64,000 nt of DNA, taken from the NCBI RefSeq assembly GCF_013004105.1, contig NZ_CP053085.1:3534001-3598000 (forward strand), in the 5' to 3' direction. Source of the stretch: Gemmatimonas groenlandica (GTDB lineage: Bacteria; Gemmatimonadota; Gemmatimonadetes; Gemmatimonadales; Gemmatimonadaceae). Numbering within the stretch: position 1 is the stretch's first letter; each line of letters starts with the position of its first letter. Positions 40,882 through 52,173 of this stretch are shown one piece after another. The notes beneath the pieces were generated by a model, which saw nothing but the letters and a program-made list of their open reading frames with translations, was not told the origin of the DNA and did not search any database. The translations under genes and the position numbers were made by a program.

Positions 40882-41475
40882 GGATGAACTGGGCAGGGCC
40901 GTCGACAAACGCCTCAACTCGATCCGCTGCTCGACGCTGCAAGTTCGATGATCTTCACAGTGTGGTCGCCCGATTCGGCGGCCACCGTCGTCGATCCGCG
41001 ACAAATCCATGATGGCGTGTACCGAATCGTGCGTTCCGCCGCCCGTGTTTGTCGCAGAATTCTGGCGACTTGTCTGGGTTGATCTTGGCCGCCAGTCGAG
41101 CCGAATCCCTTCAGTTCCTTCCGTTTGAATCCGGCGAAGGCAACGTCTGCCGATTTCGCACGCGACTCGCCAGCGTCACGACGTTCTAGTGCGCAATCGA
41201 ATCGCGAAACAGTGGGTTGATCGTCGAGTCGTTCACGGCCGGCCGCACCACGCGTTCGCGTAGATTATCGAGGTCGATCGAGCACACCGCGCCGCCGAGG
41301 CGGTGAAGAGTTACCGCGAGCAACCCGACACAGCGTTGGCGACGGACGCGTAGAAAGTCGAAGTAGGGTCGCGTCGCGTCGTCGACCGCCGCCGAACTGG
41401 TGACGGTGTACTTGCGAGCGTCCAACTATACGACGGCGACGAAGCCCCCGTGACGTGCAAACCTTTCGCTATCGG
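40882..41475. other. Gap with decayed coding only
   Basis: 594 bp without an intact gene. On the minus strand, 41014-41425 holds fragments resembling a tyrosine recombinase. The rest shows no open frame with coding bias and no RNA-like fold that I can support. Confidence 0.5.
41014..41425 (-). pseudogene. Probable tyrosine recombinase (integrase) remnant
   Basis: The minus strand at 41186-41425 encodes IDLDNLRERVVRPAVN, which resembles the LDLDNLARRVIRP segment of phage-type integrases. After a stop and frame change, 41014-41090 encodes QVARILRQTRAAERTIRYT, similar to the QxILRHxxxxTTxxYI box containing the catalytic His/Tyr region. No intact catalytic set remains. The match is short and rests on recall, so it is tentative, but an integrase would fit at the edge of the island. 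Confidence 0.4.
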
Positions 41476-43263
41476 TTAGCGACCTAGGATGTCTAGAATG
41501 CGTTCGAATCGCGCTCGGGCACGCTGCAGAATCTCGCCGAAAGACCACAGGTGAAGGCCCGCGTTCGCTTGTTTTTCGCGAATTGCTAGAACCTCAGAAT
41601 CGTACTCGCGCCCTACTACATACGTGGTGAAGTTAAGGTTCGGCCGGTGCGCCTTCAGCAGACCCTCATAACCGAGAGCCTGCGTGACGTGCTCCATCCG
41701 TATCTTCTCTTTCGGACGTTTGAACTCAATGATTGTCGCCTGATGCCCTTCGTCGCGAGACCGGCAAATCAAATCAGGACGAAGATCTGACTTGTCAGCG
41801 TAGAGCTGATCGATCTTTCCGTCGAGGACTACCCTCAGCGGCTTGTCCGATGACCACAGCTCCAGCCCCTCCTTGACGAGCCACAGATTGGCTTCAACAA
41901 GCTTGTGCAAATCGATCTCATACGCCTTATCTGAGGACACGAGTTCCTCAAGGCGCGTGATGATGTTTATCTGCGTTTGCACTATGCTGGCAACGCTCGT
42001 TAGTTGGGTCAGCCCCCATTCACTCACTAGCGCCGCTAGCTTCTCCGCTTCGTGAACGTCCGCGGCGGCAATTGCATTCATCAGCTCTTTGAGCACGGAC
42101 GACTCGTAGTAGCGCAGAACCCACTCGATCAGGCTCTTCGCGTCCTCCTCCGATGCGGTCTTTAGCTTCGCGATAATGCCGCGGACCACTGTTGACGCCG
42201 TCCCCCGCACATGCGGCGGAAGCTTTTCCAGCCGCGCCTTTACTTCCGGCGACGACATGAGCGTGTCAGTTCGCTTCTTAGTTTCGCCTTCGTCCGCGCC
42301 CTGAATCACTTTTCGAACGAACGTCCCCGCCCAGTCATAGAACGCACGAACCGTTTCTGAGTCCTCAAGAAAACCGTCACGCGAGGTCTTGATCAAGTCC
42401 TGCCGATCCTGGCCTGGGTCTTCTGGATCCAAGAATTCCGCACGAATTTCGCCGACAATCTTCTCTGCGGTGAAGAAGCCGTGTGCGCGCGTGTCGAGGC
42501 TGAATAGCGAAGGCGCTTGGACGATGCGGCCACGGACGCGAACCGACAATCCTGGTCTCTTTTGGCGCGTGGATGCGAGCACGTAAAACCCGGTTACTTG
42601 GCCAACTCCGGGCACTTGCTCAGCGAAATCTGTTCGATCTCCAAGGACCTCTTCGGCTGTACATTCGACTCCGTTCACGGTGACCGAAAAGCCGGGACCC
42701 ATTGGCATGCTACGGTACAGATGTCTTCGGAGACTGTCAGCGCTCGGCATCTTAAGGCCAGCATGTAGCTGGATTAGCTCGATCTTCGTGCCAGGAGCGA
42801 GTTCGGAAGGGGTCTGAACTACGTCAATCTTGTGGCCGACGAGCGATTGAACGTTGTCCAATGCGCTCTTATCGATAGTGATCGCCGACTGCAGTCCATC
42901 GCTACGCGTCGTAAGTCGGACACGCGAAGCAATTCCAAAACCCGCGAGCTTACCTATTCCCTTACTCCCGATCACGAGCCGCTGCTTCGCGGTTCGCTCA
43001 CCATCGGCACGTCGATTCCTACCGACGTGCAAAAACTTCTTCGTCAGCGCGGCCGCGGTCATGCCGACTCCGTCATCGGCGATAGAGATGGTGCTACTGT
43101 CGTCCAATACGTCAGGGAGTTCGATGACGACGTGCGAAGCGTCCGCGTCATAGGCGTTCGCGACTAGCTCTGCTAGGCACTTTTGTACGCTATTGTATGC
43201 CGCGATTCCCAAGTGCTCGAGGATTCGTGGCGAGAAGGAGAACTCTGCTTGAAGTCCAGTCAT
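41476..43263 (-). CDS. GHKL ATPase with C-terminal PD-(D/E)XK nuclease-like domain
   Basis: 595 residues. The GHKL (HSP90/MutL/MORC-like) ATPase fold has all three nucleotide motifs: N-box E32-x3-N36-x2-D39 (AELVANAYDAD), G1 DGVGM (64-68) and G2 GSKGIGKLAGFG (99-110). A second S5-like part follows (about 180-310), then a helical linker. The C-terminal 140 residues look like a restriction-endonuclease fold of the Shedu/DUF4263-like kind: RPDL with D497, then IIEFKRP with E513 and K515. Prokaryotic MORC-like ATPases are known from restriction-type loci. Same strand as the HEPN gene, 74 bp downstream of it. Confidence 0.8.
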   Translation of the reverse strand: MTGLQAEFSFSPRILEHLGIAAYNSVQKCLAELVANAYDADASHVVIELPDVLDDSSTISIADDGVGMTAAALTKKFLHVGRNRRADGERTAKQRLVIGSKGIGKLAGFGIASRVRLTTRSDGLQSAITIDKSALDNVQSLVGHKIDVVQTPSELAPGTKIELIQLHAGLKMPSADSLRRHLYRSMPMGPGFSVTVNGVECTAEEVLGDRTDFAEQVPGVGQVTGFYVLASTRQKRPGLSVRVRGRIVQAPSLFSLDTRAHGFFTAEKIVGEIRAEFLDPEDPGQDRQDLIKTSRDGFLEDSETVRAFYDWAGTFVRKVIQGADEGETKKRTDTLMSSPEVKARLEKLPPHVRGTASTVVRGIIAKLKTASEEDAKSLIEWVLRYYESSVLKELMNAIAAADVHEAEKLAALVSEWGLTQLTSVASIVQTQINIITRLEELVSSDKAYEIDLHKLVEANLWLVKEGLELWSSDKPLRVVLDGKIDQLYADKSDLRPDLICRSRDEGHQATIIEFKRPKEKIRMEHVTQALGYEGLLKAHRPNLNFTTYVVGREYDSEVLAIREKQANAGLHLWSFGEILQRARARFERILDILGR

Positions 43264-43337
43264 GATCGCGATTGGTTGGTTTTCTTAACGTCTGCAGCCG
43301 CGCAACGATAGTACTCAAACGCACGGTTTCCAATCCT

Positions 43338-44330
43338 TTACTTACGGCGTGCGTGATCGATCGCTGATTCGATGTGGTCATCAAGCTCCGCTGCAGCAGC
43401 GTGCAGGATCCTTCGAATCTCATCAGTCTGCCGCATGAAATCACAGTACTTCTTAAGCGCTTTATGTGGATCGCGCTCGTCTCGTAGCCGCCTAACTCGC
43501 TTGCGCCAGCTTGGAATGGGGTCATTCTTCACTGGCCAGTTGTAGTTTTTGCTCAGCCACTCGACAAGCTGGAAGACATTGCTTGCGCGGCTGCCGTTCT
43601 CCTTCGCATACGACCTACCTTGCTCCGAAGCCGCCAACTTCCAAACTTGGACGCGGAGGACTGCGCCCTCACGCGACGTACTCTCAGGAGCGTCGTCCGC
43701 AAGGAATTGAATCGTGTCATCGGCCCGCTGGACGGTTGACTCCATGTCCGCTGCTAGATCGGAGATTAAGTTGACTTTCATCGACGCGGCTACATCGAAG
43801 AGTCGCTGATATGCCGCGTTGAAGCGCTCTTCAGGATGACCTCCGGAGAGTTCACCAAGATATTTTCGCGCGCGATGCGACAGGACATCCGACGTACTCA
43901 GGATCCAGAACCGCGGCTTGTAGGCTTTCAGTAACTCGCACGTGATCGTGAGGTAGAAGAGGGTAAGTGAATGAAGTATGCCCTCATGTCGTAGCCCTCG
44001 ATGATACGCGGTGTTGCGGAACGCGTGGAGATAAAGAATGGATTCGCCGGCAACAGTGCTTAACAGGGCGAGCTTAACCGCCAGTCGAATTTTGTCGGCG
44101 AAGTTCTGACCCAGTGCTTCATCAACGACCCGCTGGTCGTACTTCGGTTTGCCAAGCGTAGTCCAGAGACCGTTTTCCGACGCCCGATCCTCTGCGAATC
44201 GATGAAGTGTCAGTTCTACAACATTGTCGATAAGCATCAACGCAAAGCGATCAAAGTTTCGATCCTGCACCGCGAGTTGATCCAGAGCTAGATCAAGCTG
44301 ATCGATCCCGTCCGCGAGAAACTGAATCAT
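43338..44330 (-). CDS. HEPN-like protein with RNxxxH motif
   Basis: 330 residues, mostly alpha-helical, no signal or membrane segment. R105-N106-x3-H110 (HAFRNTAYHRG) is the HEPN ribonuclease signature, set between helices as expected (residues about 20-140). The C-terminal 200 residues, including HRARKYLGELSG and YCDFMRQTDEIRRIL, match nothing I recognise and may sense a trigger or bind the partner. It is the first gene of a pair with the GHKL-ATPase/nuclease. HEPN RNases in such settings commonly cut tRNA or mRNA. Assigning this function here is inference. Confidence 0.65.
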   Translation of the reverse strand: MIQFLADGIDQLDLALDQLAVQDRNFDRFALMLIDNVVELTLHRFAEDRASENGLWTTLGKPKYDQRVVDEALGQNFADKIRLAVKLALLSTVAGESILYLHAFRNTAYHRGLRHEGILHSLTLFYLTITCELLKAYKPRFWILSTSDVLSHRARKYLGELSGGHPEERFNAAYQRLFDVAASMKVNLISDLAADMESTVQRADDTIQFLADDAPESTSREGAVLRVQVWKLAASEQGRSYAKENGSRASNVFQLVEWLSKNYNWPVKNDPIPSWRKRVRRLRDERDPHKALKKYCDFMRQTDEIRRILHAAAAELDDHIESAIDHARRK

Positions 44331-44584
44331 TCGATGAGCACGATGACGGACCCTGTTTGACTGAAAATTCCGATCACGCTAGGGGCCTCCTAACGCTCGC
44401 GTCCTGCGGCAGACGCCCACACGGACACCAGCGGGGCCTTCGCACCGTCCTTGAGGCTACCGCGAACGCCCCGCGATCGCTATGCGGATCTTCGCAGCGC
44501 TTGCCTGCAGCAACGCAATAATATTCCCAACGAGACCCGGCGGCGAGATACTCGTCGAACCCAGCTCCTTCGGAGGCATCCGAG
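44331..44584. other. Intergenic tract between HEPN gene and IS110 remnant
   Basis: 254 bp with no supported gene. It should contain the promoter of the HEPN/GHKL pair (reading leftwards) and the left end of the broken IS110 element (reading rightwards), but no boundary repeat could be defined. Confidence 0.4.
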
Positions 44585-45596
44585 ATGTTTTACTCCGGTA
44601 TCGATCTCCACAAGCGGACCATGGTCATTCAAACCATCGATGCCGCTGGCATCGTGGTGCGGATGGCTGACCTACCGACGAATCGTGCGGCGGTCACCGC
44701 CTACTTTGCGACCCTCGACGGCCCGCACCGAGCCGTCTGTGAGTGCACCAGCATGTGGTACTGGGTGCCGGATCTGCTCGTCCCACAGAGCATTGACCTA
44801 CGCCTTGCCCACGCGAAGGATCTCAAGGCGATCAGCTAAGCGAAGGTGAAGACCGATGCCATGGATGCCGCCACGGTGGCGCAGCTACTGCGCGTGCAAC
44901 TAATTCCGGAGGCGCACATGATTCGCGTGGGGACCCGCGAAGTGCGCATCCTTTTGCGGGCGCGGTTACTGCTGGTGAGTCGGCGCCTGGAATGCCAGCG
45001 AGCTATCGGGGCGATGCTCGAGCAACGCGGCGCTGGCTGCCGCACTGCCGGAGCTGCCGCGCCCGCACGCGGAGCTACACGAGGCACAACACACACTGCT
45101 CAAGACGCAGATTTGCCGCCTCGATCACGAACTCCGCTATTGCGTCCTGGCGACGCCGGAAGCGCAGCGCCTTGCGAGTGTGAATGGTATCGGCAAGATC
45201 GTCGCGTACCCCCTGCCGCCCGAGATCGATGGTATCACGCGCTTTCCCAGCGTCCGTCATTCCCTTCCTATTTGCCGCTTCGTGCCTGGCTCCCACGACT
45301 CCGGTGGCAAGACTCGGCACTGGCGCTGACGCGACGGCAATCGCTATCGCAAGCTCGCGTTTCACCACGCCGCGATCCGCGCGATGCAGTATTTCCCAGA
45401 GGTGAAGGCCGAGTTTCAGCACTGGAAGCGGCGCAAAGGCAAGCCGATTGCCCGCGCGTTGATTGTGAAGGAACTTGCCGCGATCGTCTACGCGATGCTG
45501 TCGAAAGGCGAACCCTTCAACAAGCAATTCCATGGACACCCCGTAGCCACCACGGAGCGCTCCACGTGGCCCCGCCTGCCAGACCCGCCCGCCTAA
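44585..45596 (+). pseudogene. IS110-family transposase, broken
   Basis: The first frame encodes the DEDD domain start MFYSGIDLHKRTMVIQ and the HAKDLKAIS segment. A TAA at 44837-44839 replaces the expected tyrosine codon, and the same frame then continues AKVKTDAMDAATVAQLLR. Later frames give SVNGIGKIVAYPLPPEIDGI and, from 45384, the C-terminal HWKRRKGKPIARALIVKELA of the Transposase_20 domain in another frame. So at least one nonsense change and one frameshift inactivate it. Confidence 0.85.
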
Positions 45597-45630
45597 CTGA
45601 TGCCCTTGAGGACCTCCGAAACGATTGGGG

Positions 45631-45835
45631 AGGCGGCATGTCGACCGTGAACATCTGAGCCCACGGGCTCGTAGGACTGTGTGATCGCCGCGCGCATGTG
45701 GACGAGCAAATCGATGACACGCGCCGTGCCATGGCAGATTATTAAACAACGCTGGTGCGCGAACAACACTACTCACGCACCAAGCACACTCGCGTGCCCT
45801 TGACACGAAACGTGTTAGGACGGTCAGGCCGCGTT
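45631..45835. repeat. ~205-bp repeat, copy A
   Basis: Begins AGGCGGCATGTCGACCGTGA and shares a colinear, diverged sequence with 50731-50945 (GGCTCGTAGGACTGTGT, GATGACACGCG, AACACTACTC and CGTGCCCTTG are in both). It lies just after the broken IS110 transposase and reaches the stop of the OLD gene. Possibly an IS110 right-end segment. Confidence 0.75.
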
Positions 45836-47752
45836 CGCCATGACCCGGATTGCTCCAACAATGCTCGAGAGACATGACGGGACGATCCCGGCTGCGGCCG
45901 CACTCTCGAGAAGCCTCTGAACGACAAGCGGGTTCTTCATGCCGTCTGCTCTCTTGGACAGTCCAAACTCCTGCAAGGCGGCGTCGATGCAGTTTTGGAA
46001 CAGCTCCGCACCGATGTCGGCTTTCAGGGATTCCTCCATATTCTTCGGATAGCAGGCGTATGTCTCCGCCACAGTGAACGGAGGCCAGTCAACTTCGGGG
46101 ATACCGAGAAGCCGCTGCAATCGAAGGTTGTCCTCCGCGCTCGCGCCAGATTTCCCTTGATCTCCATCCCAGACGGCGTAGATGGGAATCCCGATTGAGC
46201 TGAACACAGCATACGGGCGGAGCATTCCTGATTTGCCGATACAAGGCACGACTGCGCATCCTGCCGCATCGAGTGAAAAGCCGACTCGGGCCGCTTGCGC
46301 CAGTATTGCGGCGCGATCGCTCTCGCCTTCAACCAGAACCACGCAATCGGCGAAGAAGCCCTCGTTGACAATCGGCGTCATCAACGCCGCCATTCGCGCT
46401 CGTTCGCCAGCCGCTGTGAATGGAGATCCACTGCTACCGAATGCCACCCACATACGCTGCGCGACGTCCGAAGCATCTGCTCGTGCCAAAATGGTTCTCG
46501 ACCGAGCGGGCTCACTCGACGACGCCTTCTTCCTCAGGACCCGCACGTCATCGAATCGATCAATTCCAACAAGGAGTGGCGAATGTGTTGAGTACAGAAT
46601 CTGGGCGCCGTGCGCAGAACTTCCTCCGGCGCCATGCGCGAGCCGGCGGAGCATTTCGGCGATGTGCCGCTGACGACTTGGGTGCTGGTAGAGTTCCGGC
46701 TCCTCGAACGCGATCACCAGTGAAGGGTCCGTCTGGCCCCCTTCGTCTGCAGCGACTGCGGACACGGCAAGCTTCTGTAAGACCGAAAGAACGAAAGCGC
46801 GCTGCAGACCGTGTCCAACTTTGTCAACGGGCGCCTCGAAGGCATCTTCGACGAGCGCGACGTCTGCGGTTGGCAGAGGAACCTCCAAGGTTCCTAGTGC
46901 CTTCCACCGCAGCGCAAGCCCCGTGTTGGGAGCAAAGGATGCCAACGTCTGAGCGAGATCAGCTTGAAGAGTATTGAGCTCCGGCACTGCGTCGGGCGAT
47001 AGCAGATCGGCGTACTTCTGCTGCATGTCAGCTCTAAAGGCCGTGATATCAGCCCGGTTTCCGAGTGTCGACCTGACCAAGAGATCAATCAGCTGCGTGA
47101 GCGGTGATCCACGCCCTTCAACTGCAAACTGACCAGCGTCACGAACAGCCGGAATCGACAGAAGTCTCGTGAAGCGACCAAGGTAGCCTTGACCAACTCC
47201 CTTGAATCCGAAGAACTGACCATCGTCACGGTCTCTCTCCAGCGATTCTGGATGAGCCGCCTCCCAGTCTTCGAGTGCTTGGGCGCCTTGAGCTTGGTTC
47301 TGCCAAGCCGGTAGTTCGGAAAAGTCCGCTGTTGATCGGAGCGCGTTGTAGGCGGTCTTACGGTCTGTCGCTGACTCGGCGCGTCGAAAGCCGCCGAATG
47401 CCGCCCGCACTAGACGCGATCCGTGATACTTCGCCGTAGTGCGTCCCGCATCCGCAACAATCACTACATCGACCTGCAGTTGGCCGCCGACCATATACGG
47501 GCCGAACAACGATTGGGCTTCGGCTGGCAAGCCCTCGTACGTAACCCCGATAGCAATCGGTGAAGACGTGTCATTGTGGTGAAAGTCGCTCCCCGATATA
47601 CCTTGACCTCCGCTGTAAAAGGCCTCGAGCGCACGCAGAATGCAAGACTTTCCCGCCCCATTGCGACCGACGAGCGCCGTTAAGTCACTGCAAGGAATAT
47701 CTAGCTCTTCAATCGAACGGAAATGGCGGATTCGGATGGCAGAGATGCGCAT
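45824..47752 (-). CDS. OLD-family ATPase-TOPRIM nuclease
   Basis: 642 residues. N-terminal ABC-type ATPase: Walker A GRNGAGKS (29-36), signature-like GHGLQRAF (near 314), Walker B LVIAFEEPE (345-353) and H-loop STHSPLL (388-394). The C-terminal TOPRIM domain has E475 in VLVEGESD and D529/D531 in WDGDQGKSG. OLD-family proteins cut DNA and act in phage exclusion (P2 Old, GajA of Gabija). No UvrD-like helicase is adjacent, so it is not a standard Gabija pair. It follows the 75-residue and 436-residue genes on the same strand. Confidence 0.88.
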   Translation of the reverse strand: MRISAIRIRHFRSIEELDIPCSDLTALVGRNGAGKSCILRALEAFYSGGQGISGSDFHHNDTSSPIAIGVTYEGLPAEAQSLFGPYMVGGQLQVDVVIVADAGRTTAKYHGSRLVRAAFGGFRRAESATDRKTAYNALRSTADFSELPAWQNQAQGAQALEDWEAAHPESLERDRDDGQFFGFKGVGQGYLGRFTRLLSIPAVRDAGQFAVEGRGSPLTQLIDLLVRSTLGNRADITAFRADMQQKYADLLSPDAVPELNTLQADLAQTLASFAPNTGLALRWKALGTLEVPLPTADVALVEDAFEAPVDKVGHGLQRAFVLSVLQKLAVSAVAADEGGQTDPSLVIAFEEPELYQHPSRQRHIAEMLRRLAHGAGGSSAHGAQILYSTHSPLLVGIDRFDDVRVLRKKASSSEPARSRTILARADASDVAQRMWVAFGSSGSPFTAAGERARMAALMTPIVNEGFFADCVVLVEGESDRAAILAQAARVGFSLDAAGCAVVPCIGKSGMLRPYAVFSSIGIPIYAVWDGDQGKSGASAEDNLRLQRLLGIPEVDWPPFTVAETYACYPKNMEESLKADIGAELFQNCIDAALQEFGLSKRADGMKNPLVVQRLLESAAAAGIVPSCLSSIVGAIRVMANAA

Positions 47753-48331: not shown

Positions 48332-49642
48332 CTAGTCGCCCTTCGCCTTGGCAGGCTCTGAGATGTGACGGAGCGCCTTCCTGTCGAAGGTCGCCTCACC
48401 TCCGGGCAACGCAATACGAAGACTAGACGCTGAACCGAGTACTGCAGCCGCGATATCCTCTGCGGGATGTTGGACGCGCGCGTTGTCTGACTCCACCGAA
48501 AAGAGATTTCTCGACAGCTGTAGTACGAGCTCCGGGGGAATCTGCGAGCCCTTCTTTTCCTGCCACTCAAGAGCCATCTCGACAAGCCAACTTGCGCGAT
48601 CCATGTCGAGCTCGAGCCTCTTGAGCTTGAACTCCTCTGCGGCGTGTCGTTCAGACCACGAATCAGCCCATCTTATGTAGTAGACGACTGCCGCGATGAA
48701 GGCGAAGGCGCTTATGAGTCCGCGACTCGCAATTGTCGTCAGCCACCAATTCGGCTGTGTGCTTGCATCGAAGAGACGCACGGCCTCCCAGATGTTGATC
48801 GTTGCGACGGCGAGTGTGAACAGAAGCAACAACCAAAACGCAGTTTGAACGACCCCCCGCTTTGCTCCTGTCTCTGGGGTCAACGAAAATGACTCTGCGC
48901 GTTCGGCAAACTTCGCCTTAAGTTCCTTGTGGATTTCTCGTCGCGCGTGCGTGTTAGTTCGATCGTCGAGCGTCGCCTCGCGCGCCGAGAGAGCGTGATC
49001 CTTCTCCCTAAGCTCGTTATCGCGCGCATCGAGCATCGCTGTCGTCTTCAAACGCTCGGCATCGATTTCAGCAAGAAGATTCTGACGTTCGACGTCAGCG
49101 CGGCGATCGAGCTCTCTTCGCGCATCGACCGATTGTGCCACAAGCTCCCTGAGAGCCTGCTCAATCTGATTTACAGAGGCTTCGCGTCGTCGATAGAACT
49201 CGCCGAGCACTGGGCCCAATGCTACGTCTAAGCTTTCTGCGCCGACGGCACCGTACGGCTCAAACGCGCCGCGTGCGGCGCCAATTGTTTTGGCTACGTC
49301 TTCTACTGCTATTCCATCGCCGATGGATACGTTGATTGCATCGGTACCAGGGAAACTGCTGTTCGGCTCGCGAGAGATACTGAGCGAGAAAGGTCTGCCT
49401 TCATTTACGGTGAGGGAAACGGACCGAAAGACAGGATGTGATGCTCGTGCGATCACTTCATATGCAGGGTGCTGCAAGATCGCGCTGAACTTTGAATTGA
49501 TCGTGCTATTTCCGGATCCATCAGCGATTACCAGACTGATGGAATGGTTCTGGTGCGCGCCGCGCTCCTCCCACACCGTTTGTAGACGCGCAATCGCGTC
49601 CGCATCAAGGCGAGAAAGGGTCCTCCATTGTGAGTTGGGCAT
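48332..49642 (-). CDS. Coiled-coil protein with two membrane helices
   Basis: 436 residues. Residues 1-140 form a soluble alpha/beta domain. About 150-250 is a long charged coiled coil (ASVNQIEQALRELVAQSVDA ...). Helices at about 263-284 and 303-324 are transmembrane, and the last 110 residues are soluble again. No enzymatic motif. No family recognised. As the first gene of a same-strand run with the 75-residue gene and OLD, it may be the membrane partner of a defence cluster, but the 252-bp gap after it means co-transcription is uncertain. Confidence 0.6.
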   Translation of the reverse strand: MPNSQWRTLSRLDADAIARLQTVWEERGAHQNHSISLVIADGSGNSTINSKFSAILQHPAYEVIARASHPVFRSVSLTVNEGRPFSLSISREPNSSFPGTDAINVSIGDGIAVEDVAKTIGAARGAFEPYGAVGAESLDVALGPVLGEFYRRREASVNQIEQALRELVAQSVDARRELDRRADVERQNLLAEIDAERLKTTAMLDARDNELREKDHALSAREATLDDRTNTHARREIHKELKAKFAERAESFSLTPETGAKRGVVQTAFWLLLLFTLAVATINIWEAVRLFDASTQPNWWLTTIASRGLISAFAFIAAVVYYIRWADSWSERHAAEEFKLKRLELDMDRASWLVEMALEWQEKKGSQIPPELVLQLSRNLFSVESDNARVQHPAEDIAAAVLGSASSLRIALPGGEATFDRKALRHISEPAKAKGD

Positions 49643-50958: not shown

Positions 50959-52173
50959 CTAAAATCCACGCTTCTGTCGCAGCAGAAGCTCATATGGCTG
51001 CAGCAGAACCGGTTCGTAGGAGTACCAACGACTTGTCGCACGCTCCGCTTCCTGAATGAGCCGATTCATGCTGCCTTTGCTCTTTGCGGAGACGTCGTCA
51101 CCGAACGAATCCAGGAGAAACTGGCCTCTCGCCTTAATCGCTGACAGGATAGCGAAGATCGCGCGCTGTTGTGAAACGAGCTTGAAGTACGTATTCAGTT
51201 GTTGCTCGGTTGGCGTATCGTTTCCATTTAGCCCATCAAGCTCGCCTCGCAACCGCTCCGCATCTGCTCGAAATGTTGGTGTCAGGTTGGCCAGACTGTT
51301 CACGTCATCCGTGAAACCAACGTTTCGAGCGACTCTGGTAGCGACTTGCCGGAGCTTTGGGTTCGAGCCGAATGCTCGTTGAATGAGCGCCGAAACGGTG
51401 AGACCGCCGCCAATCATCGCTGAACCAGAGGTTGTATTGCCTCGAGCTGCGATAAGCGATCCCGCCAAGGCAGAACCAAAGCCAACCCATTGCAACATGC
51501 TCTGCCCTTTGCTGACCAGACCGGAGTCTGCCTCGGGGAATATCAGCAACTGCTGTGCAGTTAGGCTGACGGTCGAAACGACTCCACCGAGATTCTCCCA
51601 GCCCGCGACATTCGCCTTTAGCTTTGCGAGTTCTCTGACAACTTCCTCGCGCTTGATCGCCAAAGCACTATCGGCAGACTTTTCGTTTTTAAGTTGCTCA
51701 ATGCGAATTTTCGCCTTGTCGGTTTCGGTCGCCGCCGCGTTTAACGCGAGCCCTAGCCGCCGTTTCTCACTATCGAGCTGACGCAACTGCTCGGACGCGA
51801 GGACGGTGATTTGAGAGCCGAGATCAGAGACCCTACTTTGCACGCCCCCGTACCGACGATTGGTTTCTCGGAGCGAGTCCTGAACGGCAGATAGAATGAG
51901 CCGAGTTGCAGTGGTCGTATCTTTGTTGAGCTGCTCTGCCCTTTGTTCGAGCCGAGATTTCATCTCCGCGTAAAACGCTAGGGAATCGGAGAAGAACTTC
52001 TGCTTCGTGCGGAGTATGTTGATTGAGTCAGCTGGCTGAGCTGGCGCCTGCAGACTGGGAGCGGTCTGTGCGACCAATAGCGCCCCAGGTTGAAAATGCG
52101 CGAACGCTGAGACGAGAACTAGCTTGAGGAACCGGACCATTGAAACCGAATTAAACGGTGTACGGTATTGCAT
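50959..52173 (-). CDS. Secreted coiled-coil protein
   Basis: 404 residues; GGAGG five bases before the ATG at 52173 fixes the start. Signal peptide with a long N-region ends near ALLVAQTAPS. Residues about 60-200 form a long coiled coil (KSRLEQRAEQLNKDTTTATR, LRQLDSEKRRLGLALNAAAT), then a Gly-rich hydrophobic stretch (GFGSALAGSLIAARGNTTSG) and a helical C-terminus. No family recognised. An IS256 element lies 97 bp upstream and may have separated it from its promoter. Confidence 0.65.
   Translation of the reverse strand: MQYRTPFNSVSMVRFLKLVLVSAFAHFQPGALLVAQTAPSLQAPAQPADSINILRTKQKFFSDSLAFYAEMKSRLEQRAEQLNKDTTTATRLILSAVQDSLRETNRRYGGVQSRVSDLGSQITVLASEQLRQLDSEKRRLGLALNAAATETDKAKIRIEQLKNEKSADSALAIKREEVVRELAKLKANVAGWENLGGVVSTVSLTAQQLLIFPEADSGLVSKGQSMLQWVGFGSALAGSLIAARGNTTSGSAMIGGGLTVSALIQRAFGSNPKLRQVATRVARNVGFTDDVNSLANLTPTFRADAERLRGELDGLNGNDTPTEQQLNTYFKLVSQQRAIFAILSAIKARGQFLLDSFGDDVSAKSKGSMNRLIQEAERATSRWYSYEPVLLQPYELLLRQKRGF

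Follow-up and report, generated by a model that had tools for sequence, protein, structure and literature searches.

A paraMORC3-type GHKL-nuclease gene and an adjacent HEPN gene in a Gemmatimonas groenlandica island are probably separately acquired neighbours

Background

Proteins that join a GHKL ATPase to a PD-(D/E)XK nuclease were described in 2008 by Iyer et al. as paraMORC3, with the nuclease residues E-D-ExK, and part of them are encoded as standalone genes (PMC2292703). Here we analyze a gene for such a GHKL-nuclease and the adjacent gene for a HEPN-family protein within a stretch of 64,000 nucleotides of the Gemmatimonas groenlandica genome (contig NZ_CP053085.1, positions 3,534,001 to 3,598,000), which is referred to at its whole length as the window. 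With a probability of roughly 0.7 the two are separately acquired neighbouring defence genes and not an obligate two-gene system.

The protein VcSduA of Vibrio cholerae is a GHKL-type (type I-D) Shedu composed of a GHKL ATPase and a DUF4263 PD-(D/E)XK nuclease, and its authors noted that proteins so organised had earlier been annotated as paraMORC3 (PMC12137116). In 2025 it was reported that VcSduA by itself shields Escherichia coli and V. cholerae against phage, that cultures were protected at every multiplicity tested and that E27A and K557A each led to a loss of protection, which thus depends on residues of both the ATPase and the nuclease (PMC12137116). HEPN domains of the Ymh family fused to paraMORC ATPases were described in 2013 (PMC3710099).

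The original prediction, made from the sequence alone, regarded the pair as an undescribed two-gene defence cassette. For its GHKL-nuclease half this is superseded by paraMORC3 (PMC2292703) and by the single-gene VcSduA (PMC12137116). The accompanying remark that no named system pairing both proteins was known has to be tempered, as the Ymh HEPN-paraMORC fusions are a precedent for the link (PMC3710099). What remains as new is a divergent member of the GHKL-Shedu type that stands alone, and a HEPN family without a name whose genes lie on plasmids and in islands beside variable neighbours.

The GHKL-nuclease protein

Judged by its sequence, the protein encoded by the GHKL gene is best read as a standalone paraMORC3 or GHKL-type Shedu nuclease and a divergent, lone member of a described type (Table 1). 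The domain assignment is beyond chance, since the Pfam family HATPase_c_3 matched with an expect value (E) of 3.7e-20, phrog_6203 (a PHROG of unassigned function) spanned residues 7-591 with E 3.6e-82 and the structural match to MORC3 reached Z 23. In the predicted structure, which had a mean predicted local distance difference test (pLDDT) score of 84 and a predicted template modelling (pTM) score of 0.61, residues 9-335 were aligned with the GHKL-S5 modules of MORC3 and MORC2 at Z 21-23. MORC3 was the best match (Z 23.2, root-mean-square deviation (rmsd) 3.7, 295 residues aligned), and the earlier description of the protein as MORC-like is thus right. Searching the PDB by sequence returned weak Hsp90 matches only.

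In an alignment of 40 GHKL homologues the residues E32, N36, D39, D63, G65, G67, G99, G102, G104 and K105 were invariant and T159 was nearly so. The GHKL residues E32, N36 and D39 and the motifs that had been proposed are therefore intact, as are GHKL motifs I-IV as a whole. The choice of D64 as a key residue was not upheld: of the two aspartates in DDGVGM (63-68), D63 is the invariant one of motif II, and D64 occupies the variable x position of DxGxG.

Within the nuclease, E449, D497 and E513 were invariant in the same alignment and position 515 was occupied by K in 33 homologues and by M in the other 7, which bears out the suggested restriction-type core of D497, E513 and K515. The methionine, a variant of the PD-(D/E)XK motif, was found in the loci L150, L151, L155, L156, L188, L193 and L208, all with an adjacent methylase. 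At the level of the motif (E-D-ExK) the assignment of a putative C-terminal nuclease of the restriction endonuclease (RE) fold holds. SduA_C (PF14082) matched 9 of 18 members of the GHKL family (best E 2.5e-6), and a profile of the C-terminal region, which resembles SduA_C at this level, aligned to a Shedu nuclease at a probability of 86%. In a control of 60 proteins for this profile the sole high score was that of a 98% identical Shedu, the next being 17%. The structural matches, which barely covered the C-terminal region, included neither a Shedu nuclease nor any other restriction nuclease.

Table 1. Features of the gene pair and its surroundings (positions in the window)
Feature	Position	Strand	Remarks
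GHKL ATPase - S5 - coiled region - PD-(D/E)XK nuclease, 595 aa	41476..43263	-	paraMORC3 / GHKL-type Shedu architecture
GHKL ATPase and S5/transducer region, residues ~9-335	42259..43239	-	MORC3/MORC2 ATPase modules are best structural match
GHKL motif II DxGxG, D63-G67	43063..43077	-	D63 invariant
ATP-lid glycine motif G99-S-K-G-I-G-K105	42949..42969	-	alignment of relatives
Putative C-terminal PD-(D/E)XK (RE-fold) nuclease region, residues ~444-595	41479..41934	-	E449 / D497 / E513-x-K515
Intergenic gap, 74 bp	43264..43337	-	no minus-strand terminator-like site
HEPN-family protein, 330 aa	43338..44330	-	no named family in Pfam, NCBIfam, PADLOC, PHROGs
HEPN domain, residues ~1-145	43896..44330	-	HEPN/HepT structures, Z ~11, rmsd 2.1-2.6
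Catalytic motif R105-N-T-A-Y-H110	44001..44018	-	conservation in relatives
C-terminal all-helical half, residues 187-330	43341..43772	-	W275, Q228 conserved; no clear relative
Degraded IS110-type transposase remnant	44846..45655	+	between HEPN gene and OLD gene; context
OLD-family ATPase/TOPRIM nuclease	45824..47752	-	island neighbour; context, outside pair

Co-occurrence of the two genes

A total of 75 HEPN loci was checked. A usable HEPN open reading frame (ORF) was present in 64, giving 49 clusters at 85% identity, and 40 clusters with at least 2 kb of flank on both sides were retained. A paraMORC3-type GHKL protein was found in the flanks of none of these 40 non-redundant loci, which sets the 95% upper bound on HEPN-GHKL linkage at ~7.5%. 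The single GHKL-like match near a HEPN gene (locus L057) was located ~6 kb away and belonged to another, shorter protein.

From the other side, ~110 GHKL loci drawn from genomes, plasmids, phages and viral contigs were compared, and a HEPN profile search of them identified no HEPN relative. Scanning viral_contigs with a single GHKL query gave no relatives; an alignment query gave 135, of which 80 were kept. Any GHKL relative was present in 3 of 40 HEPN-bearing genomes (threshold 1e-8) versus 25 of 298 genomes of the phylum (threshold 1e-10), which is approximately background. The original prediction had named a neighbourhood analysis as its check and missing recurrence as grounds for refuting it. 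Carried out in both directions, in collections with a single genome for each species and some short flanks, this analysis showed no recurrent co-occurrence, and the two-gene cassette failed the check.

Both genes were missing from all other genomes of the genus examined. Among 395 genomes of the phylum the HEPN gene was found in no other; relatives of the GHKL protein in a set of 298 phylum genomes were all distant and mostly stood beside a C5-methylase. Based on this distribution both genes were therefore most likely acquired horizontally.

A genuine two-gene system, in which the GHKL-nuclease would sense and cut DNA and the HEPN RNase would be the abortive-infection arm, is unlikely. It would account for two adjacent, co-directional genes 74 bp apart with no terminator-like site between them and for their joint absence from the other genomes of the genus that were examined, and there is a precedent in paraMORC ATPases that carry a fused Ymh-type HEPN domain (PMC3710099). 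However, no recurrence was seen in the 40 non-redundant HEPN loci or the ~110 GHKL loci, GHKL relatives were no commoner in HEPN-bearing genomes than the background, and the nearest HEPN relatives (48-57% identity) had unrelated neighbours. Moreover, the shared orientation is weak operon evidence, because the main ORFs of the island between 41.5 and 52.2 kb all share one direction. As the principal reading it was rejected, since recurrence was lacking from either side.

The HEPN protein and its family

The HEPN gene is a member of an unnamed family within the known HEPN superfamily. Neither Pfam, NCBIfam, PADLOC nor PHROGs gave a match for the protein of the window, the 40 aligned relatives had no convincing match in Pfam or PADLOC, and a sequence search of the PDB yielded chance matches only. 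The signature R105-N-x3-H110, noted before, is conserved: R105 and H110 were invariant in the alignment of 40 homologues, N106 and Y109 were present in 39 of 40, and D35, E39 and H102 were likewise invariant (n=40).

The predicted structure is all-helical (pLDDT 91.6). With a second alignment method residues 1-140 matched HepT, HI0074 and HEPN-MNT structures at Z ~11, in line with a HepT-type fold; Foldseek found nothing at E below 0.001. All of the top 17 structural matches were HEPN or HI0074-like, the first 12 at Z 11.9-9.7. The fold call stands because the motif and these consistent matches agree despite the modest Z. Residues 187-330 gave scattered helical matches only, which speak neither for nor against a known fold. 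The C-terminal half, described as unfamiliar before, had no clear known relative. A MntA-HepT toxin-antitoxin pair was rejected, as no nucleotidyltransferase is adjacent and RX4HXY is absent (residue 112 is G); the neighbours of the HEPN gene are the GHKL gene and the insertion sequence (IS) remnant.

Relatives of the HEPN gene were found on plasmids, in 60 genome loci and on two viral contigs, and none in annotated phages. The hosts were Pseudomonadota, Actinomycetota, Planctomycetota and others. Many of the loci had no recognisable neighbours, and those of the closest relatives (48-57% identity) were unrelated. In two Bradyrhizobium genomes (loci L045:4727-8996 and L049:4354-8623) the gene is located 49 bp downstream of GajA-GajB (Gabija) in the same direction, and it is possibly a Gabija accessory gene there. 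In Aureimonas (L031) it lies 35 bp ahead of a superfamily 1 (SF1) helicase, in Paraburkholderia (L003) Qat is found within a few kb, and in the rhizobia L011, L038, L040 and L048 a Shedu nuclease is a few kb away.

These neighbourhoods are what might be expected if the HEPN gene were a portable toxin module attached as an optional backup to varied DNA-targeting systems (Gabija, GHKL-Shedu and others), which we consider quite improbable. They speak for it by the short distances to GajA-GajB and to the SF1 helicase and by the vicinity of Qat and Shedu. However, 15 of 39 testable loci had no co-directional gene within 150 bp, the tight neighbours examined were mostly not known defence genes, L045 and L049 share their neighbourhood and count as one event, and defence genes cluster in any case. 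That the family would be a portable RNase arm of a two-tier response, with invader DNA cut first and RNA cleavage and cell arrest if this fails, is rather improbable.

A recurrent cluster encoding proteins of 311 aa and 162 aa, a ~677-aa SMC-like ATPase, the HEPN protein and a protein of 282 aa was observed in the loci L011, L012, L038, L040, L041 and L048. This rhizobial cluster is a candidate for a separate multi-gene system.

Subgroup placement and adjacent methylases

Outside the clade of the window protein, 78 of 88 distinct GHKL proteins adjoin a C5-methylase, and in the clade itself, with members of ~590 aa, an adjacent C5-methylase was present in 0 of 10 loci. A first GHKL tree of 99 proteins showed long-branch joins, and a tree of 39 proteins was then calculated with a more careful method. 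In this maximum-likelihood tree the window protein joined the ~590-aa clade with support 100/97; its placement is less certain than these values suggest because of its long branch and low identity.

Over the paraMORC3 proteins L107-L223 the ~590-aa clade lacks an adjacent C5-methylase and the rest are mostly 650-770 aa long and have one. This split in size and methylase could be used to tell the solo Shedu-type from the restriction-modification-type paraMORC3. In the locus L125:6767-13096 a 589-aa GHKL-nuclease, an N6/N4 methylase and a ResIII/TnsA-like helicase-nuclease form an operon-like array, and L125 is a paraMORC3 within a restriction-modification-like locus. The standalone state is thus the rule in the ~590-aa clade, yet not universal.

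A whole-genome scan of the G. groenlandica genome revealed no PF00145 and no PF01555 methylase match; the PF00145 scan was positive in 10 of 14 control genomes. Two PF02384-type methylases were present, both unlinked to the GHKL gene. The NCBIfam model NF050001 (BbrUII/HgiDII type) matched all 18 aligned relatives (best E 2.8e-231) and the window protein with 225 bits (E 1.7e-66), a score that does not reach the cut-off of 550 bits; PADLOC REase_II models matched the window protein as well. The chance that the GHKL gene encodes the restriction component of a BbrUII/HgiDII-type restriction-modification system with a methylase elsewhere or lost is very small: the NF050001 and REase_II matches and the C5-methylases beside most relatives outside the clade speak for it, but the sub-threshold score, the grouping with a clade devoid of adjacent C5-methylases and the methylase content of the genome speak against it. 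A restriction-modification enzyme with a C5-methylase was rejected, since the genome holds no such methylase and the score is far under the cut-off.

Locus and island context

The HEPN gene is the upstream and the GHKL gene the downstream of two minus-strand ORFs. Their common orientation and spacing agreed with the original prediction by ORF coordinates, and a consensus scan of 41300-44700 identified neither a terminator-like site on the minus strand nor a sigma-70-like site. The pair is part of a low-GC island (39-52.5 kb, GC ~0.55-0.61 versus ~0.65 outside), and the OLD nuclease and IS debris noted before were recovered in it.

The IS110-type remnant matched PF01548 with E 0.003, under the family cut-off, and its reading frame is broken. 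Between the HEPN gene and the OLD nuclease lie frame-broken remnants of this type (44451-45875), and the two genes may once have been nearer each other. The same island contains two large minus-strand ORFs at 48332-49642 and 50959-52173 (436 and 404 aa) without Pfam matches.

Points against two separate genes

Several observations weigh against the reading as two separately acquired genes of which one is a GHKL-type Shedu. As to the GHKL protein, the nuclease half had no match to a solved structure in a comparison that covered residues 9-370, and a search up to E 1 gave no SduA_C/DUF4263 (PF14082) match for the window protein. It forms a long branch (1.38) with an identity to the ~590-aa clade of at most ~31%, and the near-identical clade members L125 and L146 adjoin a helicase-nuclease, in L125 followed by an N6/N4 methylase. 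For the HEPN protein, Z ~11 lies within chance reach of helical bundles. With regard to the separation of the genes, the co-directional spacing of 74 bp without a terminator permits co-transcription, HEPN-paraMORC fusions exist elsewhere (PMC3710099), and a rare pairing could escape collections in which each species is represented by one genome and some flanks are short. The competing readings overlap in part, so that their confidence figures need not sum to one.

Proposed mechanism and significance

ATP binding would probably dimerise the GHKL heads, as in MORC and MutL, and dimerisation would probably shut the S5/coiled region around DNA. The closed dimer would then license cleavage of invading DNA by the C-terminal PD-(D/E)XK domains, with no partner methylase involved. 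This cutting mechanism is drawn from the family, for which VcSduA is the genetic precedent. The HEPN ribonuclease would act independently and cut RNA during infection, as its fold and motif suggest, and its C-terminal helical half would probably sense or regulate. By analogy with its family, a defence role of the GHKL-nuclease is well founded. We infer the anti-phage activity of both window proteins, and likewise the DNA clamp, the RNA target and the independence of the two genes.

With this analysis the false lead of an undescribed two-gene system is removed and two testable points take its place. Members of the ~590-aa clade, having no adjacent C5-methylase, must distinguish self from foreign DNA otherwise. 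The scattered, unnamed family of 330-aa HEPN proteins, sometimes found beside known defence systems, merits study by itself. If true, a portable RNase arm would give Gabija or GHKL-Shedu a two-tier response.

Comparison with known systems

HepT of the MntA-HepT (HEPN-MNT) systems shares with the window protein the HEPN fold over residues 1-140 (Z ~11) and the RX4H motif. In contrast to HepT, the window protein has no nucleotidyltransferase antitoxin, carries G112 in place of the tyrosine and has an extra helical C-terminal part of ~190 residues. The HEPN core also aligned with HepS of the Gifsy-1 prophage (PDB 9oij, 9oik; Z 7.8, 125 residues), although this structural match is weak and no sequence relation was found. 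According to the PDB title the ligand of HepS is a phage tail tip, which is uninformative on the trigger of the window protein.

In the Ymh HEPN-paraMORC fusions a HEPN domain is likewise coupled with a paraMORC-type GHKL ATPase. Unlike the window pair, these are single fused proteins with another HEPN family, found inside restriction-modification loci. Eukaryotic MORC2 and MORC3 have the same GHKL-S5 fold (Z ~22-23 over ~300 residues), whereas the window protein lacks the CW zinc finger, has a fused nuclease instead and shares only ~14-17% identity with them.

Restriction enzymes of the BbrUII/HgiDII type (NF050001) correspond to the window protein in domain order and catalytic residues. However, they are mostly 650-770 aa long with an adjacent C5-methylase, whereas the window protein has 595 aa and no such methylase nearby or genome-wide. 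Escherichia phage PhiR44_1 (L107) with its ParaMORC3 and Dcm pair is an example of the BbrUII/HgiDII type.

VcSduA is likened to the window protein by architecture and intact residues. Both have an N-terminal GHKL domain, a clamp-like middle and a C-terminal PD-(D/E)XK domain, encoded by a single gene in a defence island. The window protein differs in lacking an SduA_C match of its own, in its divergent long branch and in the HEPN gene located 74 bp upstream.

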